Shown: positions 1 to 54,515 of the stretch, one piece after another
How the letters are laid out: every line of letters begins with the position of its first letter
Numbering within the stretch: the stretch's first letter is position 1
DNA from: Protonemura montana
Taxonomy: Eukaryota; Arthropoda; Insecta; Plecoptera; Nemouridae
Direction: 5' to 3'
Assembly (NCBI GenBank): GCA_947568835.1
Contig: OX387605.1
Span: 20,898,418 to 20,962,417 of the forward strand
DNA length: 64,000 bases
Translations under genes and position numbers: made by a program
The notes under the pieces: model-generated
What the model saw: only the letters and a program-made list of their open reading frames with translations
Database searches by the model: none
Told to the model about the DNA's origin: nothing

Positions 1-371
1 TAAGTTATCTGTATGGAGACGTTATATCTTGACTACCTGCCTCTTCCAATTTACTAAGAAACTCACTGTGTGGGAAATGCAGTAGCCAAAGTGGCATACC
101 CCTCTTTATCTTTAGCAATCGGCTAAATTTCAACTTCGGATAATAATGGTTCCTTTCCCAGTTTGTTCACTTGATCAAATAAAGTCATTGAACTGACTTC
201 GTAAGATTAAATTTAAGAAATCCACATTGATTAACAGTGCAGTACAGCAAGTTATTAAGTTTGGATAACAACTTTTTTTGCCTTGTTAGATTCATACTGG
301 CTGTAATTCGAAAGCTTTTTTTTTTAACTTGCAATAAACTGCCAATGACCATTATCAGCGGAAAGACTTAC

Positions 372-3300
372 GAAGCAGCGGCAGCCAAGGTTGCACCCAC
401 ACGTGGATGGGTTCGGTGTCGGTGACAGGATCCCACTCGTCCGCCTCGCGCTGGATTCTTGGCAGTAGAAGACGCTCTCGCAGATGGTCCACCAGCCACG
501 GCGGCAGCAGCGGAATCCACGCCTCCACTAAAGCCCACATCACGGCCGCATCACGCACGCGCCATTTCCTGCCAGTATAAATTGAACTATGACGTCTTGC
601 TGCTAGCCTACACTGTACCCATATTCACTAACTTTTTCCGAAGCAAAAACTGTGGCAGTGGCTGTGAAAGACGAGAGGTCACACAATTTGTATTCGCAAA
701 CTTTTTCTCTGTTCGTAGCTGCGGCTTTCAAATCTGGCTCGATGCAGCTGCATCGAAAACCAAGAAAACTTTCTTGGCTATGAGTCCGGTCATGAAAAGA
801 AGTTATTTGAGATAAACTTACATATATTACTTAAAAAAAAAATTTTCTATGAAAAGATGGTAACATTCCTATTATTATTTTTTACGAAAAGTCACTTTTA
901 AGTGACGAACGCAACTGCCAAATTTTTGAAACCTGAAAATGCACCAAGCAATGCCATCGATTTTTTGAGTTTCTGTTATGTTGTGCTGTTCCTTTTTTTT
1001 TCTTTCCACACCAAGTAACAGATATACAAATATTGTTAGAAGTTAAAAGATGTCAACGACCACAGCAACAACCAAACACCTGCAATATGCATTCCAACAA
1101 TGTCACAATAGCACCATAACGCTAGGAAGTGGTAAATCGAAGGAACCGCCTAGTAACGTACTACGGATCTTGCAAACCACACACACAACTTACATGATGG
1201 CTTGCCTCACAGAGGGCATCCACGCCTCCCACAGCAGCCGCTGGTAGGCGTCGTCGCCCCCACCGACCTCTCCGCCGCCGTTGCCCCCGCTGAGTAGCAG
1301 ACGCCAGCGTGCGAACAGTGCCACATTGTCGTCAGGTCGCGCCAGCGCGTCCCACGTCTGCAGACGTTCGCGCAATCGCGGGCCGAGCAGCGCTGCTGCC
1401 GCTGCCGGCGCCTCGTACAATCGCCACTCTTCGAAGTGGTCCTCCTGTGCAGGGAAAAACTTTATGTTGGTTGGATTCATAATGCTGTAGTTTGCTTTAA
1501 GGCCTGCTAATGCAGATCTTTTTATTTGAGACAGAGCCATAATCATTTATCCAAATGAGCCCAGCCTCATTTCAACTCAACTTTGGGGGTACATTTGTTC
1601 TCACAAACGGAAACAACCCATAAAAAGCTCTTAATGGCTTCTTGTGCTGCAGTTGTTTTCTTTTGCAGAGTGGCTGAAAAGGGGATAGTTTTAATACACT
1701 GCTAGAAAACAAAAAAATAAGGGTGGGACTGAAAGGGTTAATAAGCAAATCATGACAGAACATGAACAGAAAAGTGACTTTCTGCTCGAGATAGGTTAAA
1801 AACTATGTGCTATTTCAGCAGTGTTGTTGCAAAAGAGATTGAATAGTCCAATTTGAATAGTTCCAACCTTTCCACCCAAGCCTGGTGTCCCTAATCAACC
1901 AACACACCTGGAGTTTCTGCAGCAAGTCAGCAGAGTCCTCCAACTCAATAAGGGGCAGTTTCTCCAGCGCATCCACCAGCGCTGCCAGCGCGTGCTCGTG
2001 CGACTCCCGGCGTTCCAGCGCCGTCGACAGAGCAGCCTCCTCTGCTGCTAGCGTAGCAAGCCGTTCTTTGGCAGAACGAGTGGCACGCTCGTTCTCTAGG
2101 ATGTCCTGCAAGCAGAGCAGCAGCTTAGTTTCTTTTCGAATTCCATGTCGTGGGACTGGGCTGAAGGTGTCCAAACTCTAACCGAAACAATTTACCTAAC
2201 ATTTGTATCGAAAATTTTAAATATTGAGATATAAAAAATAATTTCTTACAAACCAAGGTGATTTATTTTTTGTAAATAATACGAAATGATTAGTGTGTTG
2301 GAAACACTTGTTTTGGTACGATCAACCAAGTTAAGGAACGCTGTGCTGGGCATTCATGACCAGTTTTCACAATAAGCCAGTGGTCTCATTTGGTGCCCTT
2401 TGACACAAGTAGACTTCATACTGGCACCAGATTCTCTTCCATTCTTAACTAGACTAAGTTCATTATCACACTATTAGGCAAGTGCCACAGGGCGATATGC
2501 AAAAAAGAAAGTTATTGCTAAACACCACAAATTCAGGTTTCCCTCATTCCCTTTAACCTAGGAGCTTCTAGCCTTGAGAGTATAAGTATAGTTAAGAGAG
2601 CAAGCGTTAATGTTAAGCTTTCTGCTGAGCAAACAAGCCGGCAACACATAGTATCGAAGTTTGATACTCGATGGTGATTGCGGCCATCCTTTAAATAAGT
2701 CTCTACAGTTAAATGATTACGGCTCATAACATCGACGCATGTAAATCAATTGTTAAGTTAAGCATGAGTAAAGAGTAATTGAGTGTAAACCGGTCTCAAA
2801 TGCGAGTAAGATGCAAAAAATAACGAAATTAAATTACTTGACGCTCGAAACAACTCGAGTGTCGAGTCCATCTGGTAGCTGGTAATTGGTACTCACCTGC
2901 TCACACATGTCGACGATGAGCCGCAAGTTATGTTGGAGTTCAGGCAGTGAGAAGTGTGCAGTCGTCCGGTCTGCCCGGGCCTCCATGTGTTCACTGCGTG
3001 GCGCGCCGATCGCGTGGTAGCCGGACAGCTCGCGGCGTTGTGGGCCCGTTAGGTCGATCACCTTGACGCGGCTCAGCGCAACGGAGCTACAACCCGTATG
3101 GAGGCAATCAGCCACATTATTTACATTTCTTTAATTCCAAAAAAGTTGTTTACTCAAGAACACTGCTGACACAAGATATCAATGTATCAAGTGGTATCAT
3201 TAATGGTTAACTTTCTATTAAATTCCTTTGGCCAGTTCTTCTGAAAACATTTTTGCAATTTTAGAGTCTCGACAAGATTGCGAAGGGAGATGGGCTTACA

Positions 3301-6300
3301 AATCGTAGCACCTACAATTTCTTATTTTGTTTATTTGCAAGAAATAAAACACTTATGTACAAAAATTTCTACAGCAATTTGCAAGCGTGTTTTTTTTTTG
3401 TAAGAATTATAGGAATCTTAAGACGTTCTGGAGTGGTAAAGGAGACATCCGTGCCCTTTTGGTGGAAAAACTTCCAAGCGTTTTGCCTGGAATAGGCAAC
3501 CACAATAGGGACTGCTGTCACTAGTATGAAAATAGGGTCCTGCCCAAATCCAAGGTTTATAACCAAATAAAAAAATGAAAGTATGGAATCAAAATTCCCG
3601 GTGCTACATACCCTTGCGCACGTTGCCGCGACCCGCCTTGCTGTAACAGCTGATCCACTGTTTTGTAGACGTATCGCGTTGCCTTTCCCTTGAGTGCAGC
3701 GTCCCTGCGCCACAAGGACAGCGCCTCAACGGCATCCTTGTCGTCACCTTCAGCAGCTCCAGTCTTCTCCACTCGAGCTGCCGCCGTTGCTGGAGTCTCC
3801 GCTAAACGCTGCTTTACTTCCGGGCCGTAGGCACCTAGAAGATAGAATGGTCAGCAGTGGATTTTTATAGGAGAGCTAAAGCATTTTTTTTTGTCAATTT
3901 GTATTTGTAGTTGATCCTGTCATGGCTGTTGGCTTATTTAAGAGTTTAATTTCAAACGTTTGTCGAACGAAATTAGACACTACACCAAAACCAAGGTACG
4001 GCTTAAAGGGGCATTTACCCTTCAAAATTAATTTTTGTAATAGGGTCATTCCATATCAAGTGCCCACACTCAAAACCTTCACTATCTCAGAACTTGACGA
4101 AATTTTCAGGAGGGTTAGAACACCGGAAATAAAAAATCTCTTTTAAAGTTTTTTTCCATATGTCTAGCGGTTTGCCCGTGGCAGGGGATGGAAAAATAAA
4201 ATATTTTACTTTTTGCCCCGCACGGCCATTCACTATATTCACTCTAGCGTTTGAACAAATAAACTTAAAACAATGGGATTAGTTCTAAAATGATAATCGT
4301 GCTTTCATTAACAAGAAAAAATGCATAAATTGCTTACTTATCAAGTTTAGGGGTAGAAAAAATCCACCCTTAAATTTCAACCCTTAATAACTCGAGAAGT
4401 AATATTTTTTTTTTTTTTTTGTTTTGTTGTGAAGCATCTCCTGTCTATTATCTTTCCATGAAAAAAAAATTAATCATTAACAGCCGTATGATCAGAAGTT
4501 ATGAGATTTTTATTGTATAAATGTGTGTGCATTTAGTTGTGTTTCTGCAAGTCTGTTAGCATGGTCCATGCAAATCACCCGTAAATTGATAGATTATATA
4601 ATTTTTCAGTTTAAAAATTGTGTGTAAGTACTACAAAGATTCTTTTTACTCACTCATTTCTTCGTTTCACTCTGACCTATCACTCTGGCTTCTTCGAACA
4701 ACGGCGAGGAGGAGAACACCCGCGTGGCTACTGAGTGCTCAGACACGGGTACGAAGCAATGCAGTTTTTGCGTGCCGGGAATTGGCCGGGATGACGCAAA
4801 TCGTGTGGCTAGCACCTGTTCTGTGTCTTGGTGCTCCTCAATAGTTCCGAATGTGAAGTTGATGGTCGGGATGGCTTCGACCGCCCAATCGAAGAGTTGC
4901 CGGGGTGTTATTATTTGCGACTCGTAGGGGCGCTGAAGACTCGCCCGCGCTGCCAGCCGCTTGACCGTCCCTCCGACGCCGTCGCAGGCGCTCTTCCCAT
5001 GTGACGTCGCCGTGAAATGCCACTCCACGTCGGCCCCAAAGTCTCTTTGATAGTGGCACAAGTTGGCAAAATTTTTCCTATTTTTATATTGCGAGGCTGC
5101 CCCATCAGAAAAATAGAACATCTTCTTTATGGTCTGAAATTTATTGTGCAAAAAGCTCACGAGTTTTTTTATGAATAGATGCACTGCGACAGTGTTGTGG
5201 ATCAAACTCTCGGAAATTACAACAAAGCTGATGTGGCGCTCTTCCCCGCCCTCTTTGTAATATGCCACGAAGGGGTGGATGGTGGCGGACGCATTGTTCC
5301 AGTGGAACCCCTGGGCCTCGTCTTGTAGCACGAACGCATAGTTTTCGGCAAAATCACAGATCACCAAAAACTCGCCGGGCAGGAGACCAATCTCTTCGCA
5401 CCAATCGGACATCAAGTGCGGTCTCCTGCCCGGCGAGTTTTTGGTGATCTGTGATTTTGCCGAAAACTATGCGTTCGTGCTACAAGACGAGGCCCAGGGG
5501 TTCCACTGGAACAATGCGTCCGCCACCATCCACCCCTTCGTGGCATATTACAAAGAGGGCGGGGAAGAGCGCCACATCAGCTTTGTTGTAATTTCCGAGA
5601 GTTTGATCCACAACACTGTCGCAGTGCATCTATTCATAAAAAAACTCGTGAGCTTTTTGCACAATAAATTTCAGACCATAAAGAAGATGTTCTATTTTTC
5701 TGATGGGGCAGCCTCGCAATATAAAAATAGGAAAAATTTTGCCAACTTGTGCCACTATCAAAGAGACTTTGGGGCCGACGTGGAGTGGCATTTCACGGCG
5801 ACGTCACATGGGAAGAGCGCCTGCGACGGCGTCGGAGGGACGGTCAAGCGGCTGGCAGCGCGGGCGAGTCTTCAGCGCCCCTACGAGTCGCAAATAATAA
5901 CACCCCGGCAACTCTTCGATTGGGCGGTCGAAGCCATCCCGACCATCAACTTCACATTCGGAACTATTGAGGAGCACCAAGACACAGAACAGGTGCTAGC
6001 CACACGATTTGCGTCATCCCGGCCAATTCCCGGCACGCAAAAACTGCATTGCTTCGTACCCGTGTCTGAGCACTCAGTAGCCACGCGGGTGTTCTCCTCC
6101 TCGCCGTTGTTCGAAGAAGCCAGAGTGATAGGTCAGAGTGAAACGAAGAAATGAGTGAGTAAAAAGAATCTTTGTAGTACTTACACACAATTTTTAAACT
6201 GAAAAATTATATAATCTATCAATTTACGGGTGATTTGCATGGACCATGCTAACAGACTTGCAGAAACACAACTAAATGCACACACATTTATACAATAAAA

Positions 6301-9300
6301 ATCTCATAACTTCTGATCATACGGCTGTTAATGATTAATTTTTTTTTCATGGAAAGATAATAGACAGGAGATGCTTCACAACAAAACAAAAAAAAAAAAA
6401 AAATATTACTTCTCGAGTTATTAAGGGTTGAAATTTAAGGGTGGATTTTTTCTACCCCTAAACTTGATAAGTAAGCAATTTATGCATTTTTTCTTGTTAA
6501 TGAAAGCACGATTATCATTTTAGAACTAATCCCATTGTTTTAAGTTTATTTGTTCAAACGCTAGAGTGAATATAGTGAATGGCCGTGCGGGGCAAAAAGT
6601 AAAATATTTTATTTTTCCATCCCCTGCCACGGGCAAACCGCTAGACATATGGAAAAAAACTTTAAAAGAGATTTTTTATTTCCGGTGTTCTAACCCTCCT
6701 GAAAATTTCGTCAAGTTCTGAGATAGTGAAGGTTTTGAGTGTGGGCACTTGATATGGAATGACCCAATAGTTAACAAATTATTTCAACACAGAGAAAGGA
6801 TGGAGGACTATGCTCAAATTAATTGAATTTTATCTGATTAGAGGTTTGTCTAGGTGCTAGGGGTCGAAAAAGCACTATGGGTTATTTCTTACTGGAGTTT
6901 GTTTTCTAAGCCAAAAAACGCAGACTTTGGCAATTTCTGCACGGACGGCCGTGGACACATGAGTTTTTTTATATAGTCCAAATGCCATTATTAAATCTTC
7001 CAAATCGATGATTAAAACTAAAATTCAATGAGAAAGACCCCAAGTATCCCAAAAAAGTAAAAAAAAATTGATATTGCTCAGTAATTAAACGATCCTTGAG
7101 TGTGGGAGAGATATTTGACCTCCTTAACAAAACTTGTTCTAACTGATGCTAAGGTGAGGAAATTATGGACACAATATTTCAGGGGCGTGTGGTCAGGGCA
7201 TGCGGGGCATGCACCTCATGCCCTGAGAAAATCACCAAGTGGGTTATTTTTATGTAGTTCTATCATTTACGATAATTATTTACAAATTTGGCGGGGAAAA
7301 AAGAATCGGACTGATGTTTTCAGTTTTTCAACGTTAAAAGCGCGCTTCCTCTTATAGCGCTATACATGGTGACGCTGGGTGAGCGGAGAGGAGAAGGGAA
7401 ATTCCCTCTCACTTGCTCTCTCTCAATTGCTCTCGCTCCTCTAGCTCTAGTAACGCGTCATCGTAACCTACGGCCCCAGTAGCTTTTAGCTCTATCGGCA
7501 GGAGTGTTCTGTGAGATGATTCAAATAACTTCCCGCTCTTGCTTAGATTTCCTCTGGCGACACGAGGTAGCTTGCTGCAGGCAGTCAGTCATTGGCCGGC
7601 GCTGTTTTGGGTAGAATCGCGTGGGTGACACTAACATTGCCCTGCAGCGTCTATATATATCTTTTTTTTAAGAGCATACCTAAGTTCTAGCCCCACCACA
7701 CGCCACTGTAATAATTCAAACACACAGCATACTTATGTGCTTTGAGTGGGAGGGGGTGCATACTCTGAAATGTGTGAAATCTAGAGAAGTTTGGTGATCA
7801 ATACATAATTACAAAATTAATTACACTGCCTTAAGACCTATTTTTATTATTAAATTGCACTGCAGAAGGTCCAATTGTAAAAATTCAAAACAAGTAAAGT
7901 AGATTTATTTTAGCATGAATGACTTTCCTTTTTAAGGGCAAAATTTTGCCCCGCTCAAAGTTATATTAGAATTGACAAATTAAGAAAAAAAAACGATAAA
8001 GAAGTAAAGTAAGTTCCTTGATTACCGATCGCTCCTCGCCCTCGACGCAGCCTGGCTTCGACGGGTGAGGCGATTCCTTGCAGCTCTTTGCCAAGCCCCT
8101 TGCCTGGCTGGAAACCCATCTGTAGCAGCAGCTTGGCGCCGATGCCCCGCGTGTGTTGCTCCCACTCGCCAACGCCACCTGCCGCCGCTGAGCGAGACGA
8201 GCCTCCGCGACGTAAGCCCGCCGTCTCGCCTTGCGGTGGCGCAACATTGCGCTTGCGCGGTGCCGGCACGTCCTCCTCACTGCACACATAGACGACGTTA
8301 TTAAGAGTCACTCTTTTGGTTTTGATCACTGCCTTGTAGTATTAAGCAGCGTCTTAAAGCTTTTTAATATTCGTAATAACAGTTTAGCAAGCGGTTTGAT
8401 CGAACAGTTTGTTCACGTATGATAAGCTTGTTTCTTTCTGTACTTTAAATTTAAGCACAAATTTAGGTGGTACTTACTCTAATATTTTTAAAGTACGCAG
8501 TCACTTCAGGTCTACTACTGTTTCTTCTATTACCTAAGAATGTTAAATACTACTCCAGCTCCACTATAGATACCAGAGGAGTTGTATGACAGCCCACTTT
8601 GAGGCACCAAAATATAAGTTCAACAACTAAAATGTGGTTCTAAAACAGGACATTATTCTTTCTACCCCATCCACTTGACAAGCTCTCACCTAGACGAGTC
8701 TGGCACACGACTGGAGGTTGCCTGGTCTTCATCATCATCCTCTTCACCCTCTGCAGCCTTTGCCGCACGCAGCTTCTCTGCTTTTTGCTTCTCCGTCAGC
8801 TGGAGCCCACCTGATACGAAACTCACGGGGGCCGTGTAGTTAGCACCACGTCTTCCTCCTGCCGGTCGTCGTGAGGTACTTTCTTCCTCATCGTCACTAT
8901 CCTCTGCCCAAACACCTGCAAAATATTGCTTTGGAGTAAACAATACAAGAGAAGTTGGGAATCGCTTTTTTTATAAGTTTTTGCTTTGATAGATGAATGT
9001 GGAACTGGAATCATCTTGGAATAGGAATGTCAGAACCAAAGAACTAGGATTTCCATTTTAGTTACCTATCATCTATGCCAAAAACAGGTTTTAAGAAGAG
9101 AAAACTAGCTGATACATTTACAGCTCGATATTTCCAAGATCTGGTAAATCTAGAAGTAAAGTCTACCTAGTAAGTCTAGTAAATACAAAATAGGGTTAAT
9201 ATGAAATGGAATAATTGTCAAATTTGGAACACTAACCATAAATTCTTTGATTCTTGGTCATACGCCGAGATGGCCTATTAATGTTGAATTCATTATCTAA

Positions 9301-48572: not shown

Positions 48573-51216
48573 CTACGATGTCTTCACCTTCACACCAGCC
48601 TTCCCCCTCACCACCTGCCAGCACACCCTGACCACCATCCAGCATGCAGCCAGGAGTGCCAGCACTGCCAGCGCCAGTACAGCCAGCACATCAACCAGCC
48701 AGTACCGGTACCAGGTGAGGTCAGCTGCCGCTGAGCGAAGGTGCGGTGCTCCGCGGTGGCGGATCGCGTACTCGGTCCAGAACACGGCTCGCTCCAGCGG
48801 TGTCTGCGGCTGATCCCGGAACTGTGCAGACAGCAGCTTCATGTTCTCGTAGTAACTGCAGGGACAATAGTTGAACAAGACTTCAAATATTTGAGACTCA
48901 CTGAGTAAAGGGGCTATAAATAAGTATCCAACAATCAAAAAAGTTAAATGTAAGCCTATGTAAATACTAAGTTAATGAACCCTATTTAAAATAAATAAAT
49001 TACCAAATATTTTCAAAAATGTTGATGTTTTAATAGCTTTCAACGCTTGCCAGCACTCACCAGGGTATCAACCATAAAACTTGTATGATGGTTTTTAGAC
49101 TCATGTCAACTTGATTTATCCTTAGCACTAGTTTAAAAAAAAAATATTTGAAATGTGTTTTGAATGTTCAGTAAAGGACAACTAAAATTTTCAACGTTTC
49201 GTAAATACAAAATACGTTAGTTTTTTAGTTATTGACCCTGATTATTTTATTTAGATGCATTTAGGATGCTTGAACTAGGTAATTGTTATAATTTTATGTG
49301 GTTCTTTTCATCTTTTGTTATTGGAAAATTGTCAGGACTGCTCTAACCCTTGAAGAAGTAACTAGTAGGTACATGTTACGAAACGCCGGGAAAGTTAGTT
49401 GTCCTTTACTTAGCATTCAAAACCCATTTCAAATAGTTTTTGTTCATATAACTTGTACTTTGAGATCAAGAACGTTATCTCGTTAATTAACGTTGATTAA
49501 TCCTGGGATTTACCAAGAAAACGTTCGTGATCTGTAGCGAAATATTTACAAGTGCCCTGTACAGGATTCTTCAGCAACGTCCTGAGATTACCAACACTCA
49601 CCTAGGAGTCTCTATTATCAACCTTATCTTCGCCAACACCCCTTGCGGCGAGAGCGTCGCGTAATCTAGCCGCTCCCCAACGCCGTGCGCCATCGACTTG
49701 TGTACGTTGGGGTGCTGGTCGATGATGAAGGGCAGTCCCAGCATGGGCACCCCGTGGTAAACAGCCTCCTGCGTGCTGAGCAGGCCGCCGTGCGTGATAA
49801 AGAGTCGCACGTTGGGGTGTGCGAGCACGTCGTTCTGGGGCAGCCAGGGGGACACATGTACGTTCGGGGGCAGCGCGCTCCCCAGCTCCGACGCAGCCGT
49901 CTCCCACTTCCACAGCACGCGCAGCCGAGGCAGCTGCGCGAACGCCTTGAGGAACGCGGACAGTGCTTCGGGGCGCAGTTGTGAGCTACGGATGTTGGAG
50001 CCCAGACTGAACAAGATAGCGCCGTCGGTGGCCTCATCCAGGAATTTTTGAAGATCCTGGAGATAAGATGTGTGTCGTATGTCTGAATATTAAACACTTT
50101 TAGACAATAGTAATAATAAAAACATAATATATGTCGCTGGGGTTTTGGTATACACAATATCTTTAAATCCAAAACACCTTCCGAGAAGCTTTTTCTCTTG
50201 TACAGATGAATATATGAAAAAAAAAAATGATAGATGATACACAATAAAATACTTATCATCATGCTACGTTCATGTAAATGTATAAGTTTTCAATTCAGCA
50301 CTGCTCTCTTAATTATTTGTTTTGCGGTCACCCACCCGGTCTTGATAGAGTACAGTGTAACTTGGTGATGTAACTTGGTTTATTCTTTACTGACCTTTGG
50401 CAACGTCTTGACTGGCTGAATGTGTAATCCCCCCACGGGCACCATGGCCGGAAGCAGCGGGCGAGGATAGTCGATGCTGAAGTGCGAGTTCACCATAACC
50501 AGGCTGATGTTGGCTTCGATCTCACTGACGGGGGGCACGTCCGGCCCCAGCCGTCGTCGGGTGATCTCGTCTATCATTGGCAGGTAAACGTAACTCCTGT
50601 ACGCACTGACGAACGCGTACAACACTGTGTTGGTAACACGTTCCCAGAAAGTCATATGATCCGAATAAGTAATGTACAGATTTGGAATATACGACGGTGT
50701 CTCGATGTCTCCTGTCAATTTACTAGCCCACATAGGATGTGCGAAAGCAGTGACACCGATCATAGGGGGGTTGCCAAAGTGTCTGACAAACCCCAAGAAA
50801 CATTCGTTTACAACGACCTCCATTATTATCAAATCGTACTTTTCTTTGCGCGCTAAAAGCTTTCGAGCGCCTTCTGAATTCATCCAATGTCCACACATCC
50901 CTGTTCCCCAGTCCCACCAAGTCATCATCGACTTGAAAGGTCCGTCGGCGAACATCGTTGTGTATTCCCAATTGGATGCGATGAACTCATAGGAACCTTC
51001 CAAGACGATGTCAGTAAGGTTGGCGACTGGTGACTTCTCGGGGTCTGGGCTTACTACTGTCACGTGGTGTCCTCGTGCGGCCAGCGCGGTCATCAGGACG
51101 CTGTTCCATCTGTGATGGCTGGGGGACGGTGTGGGGAGGATTGCCAGAATGTTGGCCGCTTCGTTGGGGTGCGTCGATACCACGGCTAGGATGCATATGA
51201 CGGTGACTGGCCACAT
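48573..51216 (-). CDS. UDP-glycosyltransferase (UGT), leftward copy
   Basis: UGTs transfer sugar from a UDP-sugar to small lipophilic compounds in the endoplasmic reticulum lumen (detoxification, pigment and hormone conjugation). Exons 51216-50395, 50056-49602 and 48855-48573 join in phase (0, then 2) and give 519 residues, the normal length. Residues 1-20 or so form a signal peptide (VTVICILAVV). The acceptor domain has PTPSPSHH with the likely catalytic His. The donor domain carries the UGT signature from W345LPQ through H363GG, LSTQEA and GVPMLGLP to D387Q. A single membrane helix lies at about 478-500, followed by a basic tail ending VKVKTS, typical for a type I ER protein. The ATG at 51216 was chosen because it begins the signal peptide; an upstream 5' UTR intron acceptor is plausible. 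Intron 2 contains an inverted-repeat MITE. The acceptor-binding half differs from its neighbour, so the substrate may differ. Confidence 0.95.
49085..49480. mobile_element. Inverted-repeat MITE-like element in UGT intron 2
   Basis: The segment 49131-49204 (TTTTGAATGTTCAGTAAAGG, then CGTTTCGTAA) recurs as its reverse complement at about 49378-49455, roughly 75 bp per arm at about 80% identity by eye. A second copy of the family is at 59498-59690. No coding capacity was seen. Outer boundaries are approximate. Confidence 0.6.
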
Positions 51217-52322
51217 TGTCTGGAAGATAGGCAATATATGATACACGCAATTCTATCCGGTTTCATTGATCAATGGCAAAAGATAATGAAAATAGTGACA
51301 ATTGTGGTGGCTTCGATAAGATAGATGAAAAATAGGTAACACTAGAAACTACCAAATTCGAGTTTTATAATTGTCTATGTAATTTGTTGGGAAAAACACA
51401 TTTCCAAGTCTTTAATATAAATAGGCTCCAAACTAATGTCCAGTTTTGTGAATTTACTCACGATTTGTGCGTCACTTTCAGTGTATTTTCTCAGTTTAAT
51501 GGTATTTAATTCAACTCTATCCCCCCTGTACACATTTTGTTGTAACTACCTGCTTCTTTCACCTGTGAATTCCCATCCAGCACTGTGATGATATTTGCTC
51601 TGTCGCCTTCTCTTAAAAGATGGATGATAAGAGAATAGAGGGTCATGTGACCAGCAGTCTGCCTTCAATTATAATTGAGTAACAGTGCTTGAAAATGATT
51701 GTGCAATAAACCAATTATACATGATGAGAATCTCTTTTGAGAAGAAAATATTTATTTTTTATGCTCCTACTTTTATTCGGTTATTTATATCCAAGTTATA
51801 AGAATACCAACAATTATATTGGAGGAAGCACTAATGTTGAAAGCCTACGTCCTATTAGTCACAGATCTCTTCATCTCTTTGAGTAAATAACTACAATGTC
51901 TTAATTTTCAAAGTTCACTTTAAGAGTCAACAGCAAAGGGTTGACAAGCAGCTCTCGGTCCCTTTAATCTAGTTCACTAGCAACTACTGAGAGAAAATTG
52001 TTTAAATCTGTGTTTTTGCTGTGCTCCTTTCAGTTTCATTAAATCGCAAAGAAATAAAAACATATATATTTATATCTACTTTGTAAAGGAACAGTTTCAA
52101 AGTAGGGGTCCAGCAACGAATTATACGATTCCCAATTTAACACAAATACCGCGCGTCACCACTCAACGTTGAAAACAATAACCTACACATTGTCCAATGT
52201 ATATCTCCATAAAGGTCAGTTTATAAATAACGTCTCATTAGACGATTACGGCCATGAAATTGACTGCGTCAAATCACAACAAACTTGCTTTCACTAAGGC
52301 CGTACTTGAGCCGCGTTTGACA
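51217..52322. promoter_or_regulatory. Shared upstream region of the two divergent UGT genes
   Basis: 1.1 kb between two divergent start codons, AT-rich, with no other gene. It must contain both promoters, and possibly a non-coding first exon of the leftward gene because a pyrimidine-rich AG acceptor lies just before its ATG. Confidence 0.5.
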
Positions 52323-54515
52323 ATGAATACCATCGTCATCACGCTGTTCCTCGTAAATGCGTACACGACTTCTGCAGCTAGCATCCTAGCTCTGCTGCCG
52401 ACACCCTCACCAAGCCATCATCTCTGGAACAGTGTCCTCATGAAGACTCTCGCTACAAGGGGTCACCACGTCACTGTCCTCACCCCTGACCCGGAAGTTA
52501 TTTCCATCGCCAACTACACAACGCTGCATATGGAAGGAACATACAAGCACGCCATCAAGACAAGAGATTACCTCAGCATGAATGAAAGTCCCTTCTCAAT
52601 GTTGTACACCATGTTTAGTTGGGGACCGACCATGTGCAACTATGGGATGGATACACAGGGAGTGAAGACTTTGATGAACATGAATGCGACGTTTGATCTG
52701 GTAATCGTAGAGATTTCTTTCTACGAATGCTATTTGGCGTTCGTACCGTGGTTTGGTAATCCTCCTGTGGTTGCCATCACTGCTTTGGCGAGTCCTGGGT
52801 GGGCCGGCTGGATCACAGGAAGTCCTGAAAACCCGTCTTTCGTTCCCAACTTCTTGTCGTCTGCGATTGATCGCATGGGCTTCTGGGAACGTGTTACCAA
52901 CACAGTGTTGTACGCGTTCGTCAGTGCGTACAGGAGTTACGTTTACCTGCCAATGATAGACAAGATCACCCGACGACGGCTGGGGCCGGACGTGCCCCCC
53001 GTCAGTGAGATCGAAGCCAACATCAGCCTGGTCATGGTGAACTCGCACTTCAGCATGGATTATCCTCGCCCGCTGCTTCCGGCCATGGTGCCCGTGGGGG
53101 GATTACACATCCAACCAGTCAAGCCGTTGCCGAAGGTCAGTGGTGGGGAAGAGGGGAAGAGTTTTCATGAGTCAAATTGAGCCTGAGTATGGTTGTCATC
53201 GCCTACTGGATGATGCATTTTTTGAGCAACGGAGCTAGAGTCGTGATCGGAGCTACTGGCGGCGAGGGCTGGTTGGGTGACTATGACCAGATATCAAATG
53301 ATTGCTATAGGAAAGAGACTGTTTTATTTAAAATAACACTTGTATCCGTCTGAGATTCACAAAACACCGTGTTTTATAGAAATCCAAGAAAACCTCGAAC
53401 CATGCGTTCTAAGTTGACCTTGCTACAGATGACTTTCAGCCAATACTTTTCTTCTCTACAGGATCTTCAAACATTCCTGAATGATGCTGTCGACGGCGCC
53501 ATCTTGTTCAGTCTGGGCACAAACATCCGCAGCTCACAACTGCGCCCCGAAGCACTGTCCGCGTTCCTCAAGGCGTTCGCGCAGCTGCCTCGGCTGCGCG
53601 TGCTGTGGAAGTGGGAGACGGCTGCGTCGGAGCTGGGTAGCGCGCTGCCCCCGAACGTGTACGTGTCCCCCTGGCTGCCTCAGAACGACGTGCTCGCACA
53701 CCCCAACGTGCGACTCTTCATCACGCACGGCGGCCTGCTCAGCACGCAGGAGGCTTTTTACCACGGGGTGCCCATGCTGGGACTGCCCTTCATCATCGAC
53801 CAGCACCCCAACGTACACAAGTCGATGGCGCACGGCGTTGGGGAGCGGCTAGATTACGCGACGCTCTCGCCGCAAGGGGTGTTGGCGAAGATAAGGTTGA
53901 TAATAGAGACTCCTAGGTGAGTGTTGGTAATCTCAGGACGTTGCTGAAGAATCCTGTGTAGGGCACTTGTTAATTATTCGCTAGAGATCACACACGTTGG
54001 TGTAAGCGAAGATAAGGTAGCTGCTGAAGACTCCTAGGTGAGTTCGCCGGAACAAGGTATCCCATTTCTGGAGGCTGAATACCATTCATGTTCCCGAATT
54101 ATGTTCGGAATGTCAAATTCCGAATACTTCTTCATTCATACTTTTCAAGGTTGCGCCCGGTTCTTTAGCATTGGTACTTTTGCCACTGTGTAAGTAACGC
54201 GGGAAAATAACACGGAAACCTCTTCCTTGCAGATATCATGAGAACATGCAGCGGCTTTCGGCGGAGTTCCGGGACCAGCCGCAGACGCCGCTGGAGCGCG
54301 CTGTGTTTTGGACAGAATACGCGATTCGCCACCGTGGGGCGCAGCATCTTCGCTCCGCGGCCTTAGATCTCGCCTGGTACCGGTACTGGCTGCTCGACGT
54401 GCTGGTTGTTCTGATGCTGGCAGCGATGGCACTCCTGGCTGCGTGCTGGGTGGTGGTCAGGGTGTGCTGGCGGGTGGCGAGGGGGCGGTCGAGCGTGAAG
54501 ACGAAGACCAGATAG
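52323..54515 (+). CDS. UDP-glycosyltransferase (UGT), rightward copy
   Basis: This is the paralogue of the leftward UGT with the same three-exon structure: 52323-53135, 53462-53916 and 54233-54515, with identical phases and identical lengths for exons 2 and 3 (455 and 283 bases). It encodes 516 residues: signal peptide (IVITLFLVNAYTTSA), PTPSPSHH catalytic segment, donor domain with WLPQ, HGG, LSTQEA, GVPMLGLP and DQ, one membrane helix and a basic tail. The ATG at 52323 was chosen over an upstream in-frame ATG at 52254 because it lines up with the neighbour and starts the signal peptide. The first two thirds of exon 1 is clearly diverged from the neighbour, while the end of exon 1 and all of exon 2 are almost identical. 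A partial repeat of the exon 2 end lies in intron 2. Confidence 0.95.
54005..54046 (+). repeat. Partial duplicate of UGT exon 2 end and splice donor
   Basis: GCGAAGATAAGGT and GACTCCTAGGTGAGT both recur about 120 bases downstream of the true exon 2 end (53885-53923), so intron 2 contains a second potential donor. Confidence 0.7.

Follow-up and report, generated by a model that had tools for sequence, protein, structure and literature searches.

The TFIP11-type gene and the palindrome in its intron

We analysed a window of 64,000 nucleotides of DNA from Protonemura montana (Plecoptera, Nemouridae; GenBank assembly GCA_947568835.1, contig OX387605.1, positions 20,898,418 to 20,962,417 of the forward strand), in which a long palindrome at 4043–6765 lies within an intron of a TFIP11-type gene; positions are those of the window. 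According to the Pfam searches, open reading frames (ORFs) on the minus strand encode TIP_N (8689–8970), G-patch (7964–8341), and GCFC (1193–1546) domains, which correspond to the TFIP11 domain set. The intron holding the palindrome was placed at 3835–8025 (minus strand, 4191 bp) from these domains, the GT and AG at its ends, and the reading frame, the splice sites being our own reading of the sequence. The exon just after the intron (ORF 3560–3850) had no Pfam match and was assigned to the gene because of the GT/AG sites and the continuity of the reading frame. Once the palindrome and one target duplication are subtracted, the host intron amounts to 1464 bp. The domains and predicted splice sites bear out the placement in a TFIP11 intron that had been proposed in the initial annotation of this DNA.

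The palindrome is composed of two arms, 4043–5388 and 5420–6765, that are exact reverse complements of each other (1346/1346 nucleotides pairing), separated by a 31-nucleotide spacer at 5389–5419, so the description of 1346-bp perfect arms around a 31-bp spacer given in that annotation holds, coordinates included. Identity over 1346 bases is impossible by chance. The repeat finder gave wider arms (4040–5388 and 5420–6768), but the three extra outer bases, ATA versus ATT, do not all pair, and for this reason 4043 and 6765 are the right outer limits. The resulting 2723-bp unit starts with GGGTCATTCC, ends with GGAATGACCC, and is bordered on each side by AATA (4039–4042 and 6766–6769), a 4-bp target-site duplication. 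In a tandem-repeat scan, the sole repeats within 4043–6765 were one poly-A/T run in the arms and the short-period rows overlapping it.

Two divergent transposase-like genes had also been predicted in the palindrome. Both ORFs exist and are divergent, but they represent C-terminal transposase fragments and not whole genes. By comparison with the parent ORF described below, the first (4654–5415, minus strand, 253 amino acids) comprises the C-terminal 245 amino acids of a 689-amino-acid transposase-like protein plus 8 amino acids across the junction, and the second, taken from the ORF list (5441–6154, plus strand, 237 amino acids), covers the same C-terminal part on the opposite strand. The stop-to-stop frame on each side of the palindrome spans 270 amino acids, versus 689 in the parent ORF, and neither fragment matched a Pfam family at an E-value of 1 or below. 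The palindrome is thus without a complete transposase ORF.

The parent transposon and a second related family

A search of the genome that contains the window (258 Mb in 34 contigs) returned many relatives. The full-length parent copies L059 and L060 are 3780 bp each and one base apart; parent coordinates are given as E 1–3780. In these two copies, the left and right terminal inverted repeats are 98.4–98.6% identical over about 505 bp. The parent contains a single ORF of 689 amino acids from its ATG, and the genome search revealed 702-amino-acid open frames in many copies. Exact patterns from the left and right halves had 54 and 134 matches genome-wide, respectively, and an 871-bp piece of the left half was 100% identical at all 40 scored places (40 of 104 candidates scored). 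Because the left-half copies are identical, the family can be regarded as young. As far as its sequence indicates, the parent looks recently active and is a cut-and-paste-type DNA transposon that is very young and present in this genome in abundance.

In parent coordinates, the window palindrome runs from E 3780 down to about E 2433 and then from about E 2406 up to E 3780, an organization referred to here as type A. The left arm (minus strand) is the parent's right half from E 3780 down to about E 2433, with 99.48% identity to L059, and the right arm (plus strand) is the same half, directly oriented and reaching E 3780, with 99.49% identity over 5393–6765, equivalent to E 2409–3780. Because the two half-ends differ (about E 2433 versus about E 2406), the spacer corresponds to the unpaired part of the longer half; in our own reading against E 2400–2450, it is mostly the single-copy segment of about E 2406–2433 (plus strand), with TC doubled at the junction. 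The parent's terminal inverted repeat is found on the left at 4043–4548 (plus strand, 97.6% identity to E 1–505) and, from the comparison with the parent, on the right at 6260–6765 (minus strand). The parent's left half and the N-terminal part of its ORF are absent from the type A palindrome. Parent and palindrome alike carry GGGTCATTCC at both ends.

A second related family, represented by L065 (G000:C1:3233300-3238300), has an 860-amino-acid ORF, 487-bp inverted repeats at 95.7% identity, TAAT on both sides, and the same GGGTCATTCC start as the parent; its right-half pattern had 162 exact matches. At C1:22025256/22027948 and C4:3014932/3017223, right-half patterns of this family face each other 2.3–2.7 kb apart, with right ends that nearly meet.

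A series of palindromic elements

Exact searches of the genome with the centre junctions yielded 9 places for type A, 17 for type B, 10 for type C, and 6 for type D. The 17 type B places correspond to 16 elements because a double palindrome (type E, a palindrome of a palindrome) holds the B junction twice, and the total is at least 41 palindromic elements (A 9, B 16, C 10, D 6). Two of the 16 type B elements constitute type F, with one arm of the shared lineage and one arm of another lineage. Two type A centres are altered, by a deletion in L024 and by a truncation in L029, and L068, a derivative that has B/C junction sequence and a single arm, falls outside the exact B and C pattern matches. 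Copies were fetched for all nine type A elements, 10 of the 13 type B elements that are neither E nor F, 7/10 of type C, 4/6 of type D, the single type E, and both type F. Such an inverted repeat had been described as rare and unstable in a host intron; rarity is wrong for this genome, and instability is supported indirectly by the altered or truncated centres of L024, L029, and types E and F.

For the target duplications, 24 loci were entered and one, L025, was dropped as its right end is missing (the right arm stops at E 3465). Perfect 4-bp duplications were found at 23/23 copies with both exact ends, namely 20 palindromes and 3 full-length copies, so that parent (3/3) and palindromes (20/20) share the duplication length of 4 bp. 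Eight of the nine type A elements have both ends together with their own 4-bp duplication, and the ninth, L029, is truncated just past the centre. Flanks were common only to loci of the same site, except for those of the window, which resemble the flanks of L059, probably through another repeat. Specifically, the right flank at 6769–6900 is approximately 90% like that of L059, located on another contig, over 137 bp, and another repeat family probably encompasses or adjoins both.

The perfect duplications belonging to each copy, together with flanks that differ between sites, argue that the elements moved as finished palindromes. The window element can accordingly be described as a type A copy of a palindromic non-autonomous DNA transposon, and the earlier proposal of a fold-back DNA transposon that moved as a unit is supported by the recurrence of the same centre. 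The alternative proposal of a very recent inverted duplication stands only in part, as an inversion did occur, in an ancestor, while the window copy most likely arrived as a finished palindrome. Formation of the palindrome at the window site was rejected, the same type being present elsewhere with its own duplications.

Centre types, shared variants, and a likely founding inversion

The palindromes examined have in common, relative to L059 and where covered, the variants 2356G, 2710A, 3009G, 3250T, 3551T, 3660A, and 3662A; ten type B loci were cut at E 3422–3423 in one arm, which restricts the assessment of their outer variants to the other arm. The variant 2356G occurred at 46 places, 43 of them near an exact palindrome junction, one in L068, and two in L066 and L067, which carry it without the rest of the palindrome set. 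The centre breakpoints lie at about E 2433/2406 in type A, 2384/1971 in type B, 2299/1971 in type C, and 2314/2170 in type D. In our own reading, E 2384 is joined to E 1971 at a shared GG in the type B junction, and type D contains a 12-nucleotide filler resembling adjacent sequence copied in inverse orientation. The final 12 nucleotides of the type B junction, with its three junction-specific differences, are present in type C, whereas 6/6 non-palindromic copies covering the place lack these differences; this relic indicates that type C descends from a B-like element.

The four centre types could instead represent independent inversions from one full-length lineage, produced by a pathway that frequently forms palindromes. 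The types do differ in their breakpoints, and the short arms of C and D extend beyond the point where that of type B stops, an outcome that a simple central deletion from B cannot produce. Nevertheless, the B relic in type C and the variant set common to the types speak against separate origins. A search for left-half palindromes found none (0 pairs within 10 kb among the 54 left-half matches), and in the second family no outward right-half pair closer than 6 kb was seen, by eye, among 100 of the 162 places, one pair being 9.3 kb apart. These two negative results point to a rare founding inversion followed by spread and not to a habit of all such elements. We therefore regard independent inversions as unlikely and a single founding inversion for all palindromes as likely, the most likely course being one inversion followed by mobilisation and reshaping of the centre.

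Identity between the arms

The arms were compared over E 2620–3396 in 29 elements with both arms; types E and F were not entered, and L029 has one arm. Within one element, the arms showed 1 difference in 22,529 sites, and between elements 285 differences were counted in 1,306,686 sites. Some copies carry private variants in both arms (3009 in L020, 3235C in L050, and 3403A in L021 and L024), which suggests arm-to-arm conversion. In addition, 3654T is situated on opposite halves relative to the spacer in L014 and L015, an arrangement that exchange between arms or flipping of the centre would produce. Judged from these sequences, arm-to-arm conversion seems somewhat more probable than its absence, and the youth of the family, probably together with conversion of one arm by the other, would keep the arms identical.

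The transposase-like protein

The protein of the second family had no Pfam match at the cut-off (best E-value 0.051). For the 253-amino-acid fragment, the predicted model, which is of low confidence (predicted local distance difference test score of 42), can be read as the order strand-strand-strand-helix-strand-helix-strand-helix, which is RNase H-like. Residues D457, D540, and D581, selected by hand from the invariant columns, are also found in the second family, at 49% identity between the proteins. The model and these residues point tentatively to a DDD-type transposase core.

Proposed origin of the palindromes

From the sequence comparisons, we consider it very likely that the palindrome is a mobile non-autonomous derivative of the 3780-bp transposon, consisting of an ancestral head-to-head right half that was moved by the parent's transposase and whose centre was reworked. 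In the ancestor, the right half of one copy, including the transposase C-terminus and the terminal inverted repeat, would have been joined head-to-head to another copy of that half. Following excision or a break, one end may have folded back on itself, or both ends may have copied inward from the same right half, with the new ends being joined with little or no homology. The product, having two good ends, could then be moved as a unit by the parent's transposase, and the palindrome would have multiplied while its centre was reworked several times, giving rise to types A, B, C, and D and the derivatives E, F, and L024. Mobilisation in trans by the parent's transposase is almost certain on this reasoning, because the palindrome retains both ends but lacks a complete ORF. 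We place good but lesser confidence in an origin by break repair, through fold-back synthesis or template switching; abortive gap repair and template switching have been named as sources of defective copies for Galileo (PMC4168063). The data are compatible either with fold-back synthesis or with copying of one and the same half by both ends.

Several observations weigh against this account. A search for a full-length copy carrying the entire palindrome variant set found none, and, judged from the sequence, the source of the palindromes is missing or mosaic. Furthermore, L020 is without 3009G in both arms, as are the full-length copies, and one type F arm lacks 3009G and 3250T. Single palindrome variants occur in non-palindromic copies (3009G and 3250T in L061; 2710A, 3250T, and 3662A in L062; 2356G in L066 and L067), which means that sequence moved between copies or that the source was mosaic. 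The poly-A lengths group A with C and B with D, and types A and D may have derived from B/C or arisen separately. The contrast of arms within and between elements is weak, with 4.9 differences expected for arms drifting as independent copies do and 1 seen (Poisson 0.04 for one or none, sites treated as independent), which makes the deficit no more than suggestive, and changes confined to one arm were found at 3393 in L045, as 3654T in L014 and L015, at the poly-A edge in L046, and as a 4-nucleotide deletion in L022. Finally, the parent's transposase-like protein had no Pfam match at the cut-off (best Dehydrin, E-value 0.15) and no relevant match in a search of solved structures. As a separate observation, full-length L061 (G000:C4:6486450-6490450) shows palindrome-type states at 3009, 3250, and 3419 only, resembling a conversion tract between palindrome and full-length sequence.

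Possible hairpin RNA and silencing, and the assembly

The predicted fold of 5300–5510 is one hairpin of −196.7 kcal/mol versus a shuffle mean of −64.8 kcal/mol, as any perfect palindrome would give, and on sequence grounds hairpin RNA from transcription of the palindrome is possible. A known precedent is Mu killer (Muk), a derivative of maize MuDR that silences its parent; the silencing plants made antisense transcripts, and read-through transcripts were not linked to it in that account (PMC3440606). Mu killer is similar in being a partial inverted duplication of the transposase gene, with both terminal inverted repeats from one element end, located beside a host gene; in contrast, it is a single locus of another superfamily (PMC3440606), while at least 41 mobile copies with four centre types and a duplicated 3′ half were found here.

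The palindrome could likewise be a mobile silencer of its own parent, with hairpin RNA being cut into small RNAs against the transposase message. This is consistent with the shared layout (part of the transposase gene duplicated in inverted orientation, and the same terminal inverted repeat at both ends), with the location of the window copy in a TFIP11-type intron, and with the stable fold of the centre. However, the parent looks recently active, given the 100% identity over 871 bp at the 40 scored of 104 candidates, and Mu killer silencing tracked antisense transcripts and not read-through from the flanking gene, as reported in PMC3440606. Complete silencing of the parent is disfavoured because the full-length copies are near-identical, pointing to recent activity, and we regard a silencing role as quite unlikely. 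Slightly more doubtful is a self-limiting transposon in which the palindromes would be mobile silencing cassettes mobilised by the parent they shut down. If so, insertion in or near a transcribed gene would lead to hairpin RNA that corresponds to the 3′ half of the message for the parent's transposase, and the palindromes would last because arm-to-arm conversion keeps the hairpin perfect.

An assembly artefact, in which a read or contig folded back on itself, had been raised in the initial annotation and fold-back chimeras are indeed a known artefact of long reads, but this explanation is extremely improbable here, since the junction with the 31-nucleotide spacer recurs at nine distinct sites, eight of which retain both ends and have an individual target duplication, and the mirror ends exactly at the transposon termini.

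Comparison with known elements

Miniature inverted-repeat transposable elements and internally deleted non-autonomous elements are moved by a relative's transposase and have intact ends and target duplications. Ordinary deletion derivatives of this sort have one left and one right end, whereas the palindrome is long and consists of the right half twice over. Foldback (FB) elements have long inverted repeats around a small centre, with arms made of internal tandem repeats. The palindrome is alike in its long inverted repeats and small centre but has only the poly-A/T run in its arms, and assignment to FB was rejected, no tandem-repeat arms being present in 4043–6765.

In Galileo of Drosophila willistoni, the end of the transposase ORF has been recruited, inverted, into both terminal inverted repeats, over more than 500 bp in copy 147 (PMC4168063). 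The arms described here differ in comprising 1.3–1.5 kb of the right half, at or near 100% identity, in a multi-copy series. Membership of the P superfamily, including Galileo, was rejected, as the 4-bp duplications at 23/23 copies contrast with the 7 bp given for Galileo and the 8 bp given for the P element (PMC4168063). The 4-bp target duplications are shared with Sola, as given for Sola2 (PMC3627910), and the terminal inverted repeats of 12–21 bp given there for Sola2 differ from the approximately 505 bp of the parent. The top literature match to the terminus letters, a short tick transcript tag (PMC4028808), shared 10 letters and was rejected as not being this element. Among the papers listed in the literature searches, no title or opening of an abstract described this family or a comparable palindrome series.

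Other features of the window and contig

At 48573–54485, the window contains two UDP-glycosyltransferase genes in opposite orientation (PF00201 in 3/3 ORFs tested). Inverted blocks there measure 549 and 261 bp (95–97% identity) and 263 bp (83%), a pattern resembling partial homogenisation by conversion. In contig C1, (TTAGG)n arrays are scattered at many interstitial positions among the first places listed. Exact matches to (TTAGG)7, counted with overlaps, numbered 11,123, which suggests an arthropod.

Significance

Perfect palindromes on the kilobase scale are unstable and have mostly been studied as engineered constructs. Here, one genome holds at least 41 related palindromes with an identified parent family, known sites, and visible changes of the centre, so that natural copies can show how palindromes form, how their centres are repaired, and how arms convert each other. 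A Mu-killer-like hypothesis outside plants also becomes directly testable through small RNAs. If the small RNAs reveal nothing, the series would still be a clean example of a DNA transposon spawning fold-back derivatives that spread.

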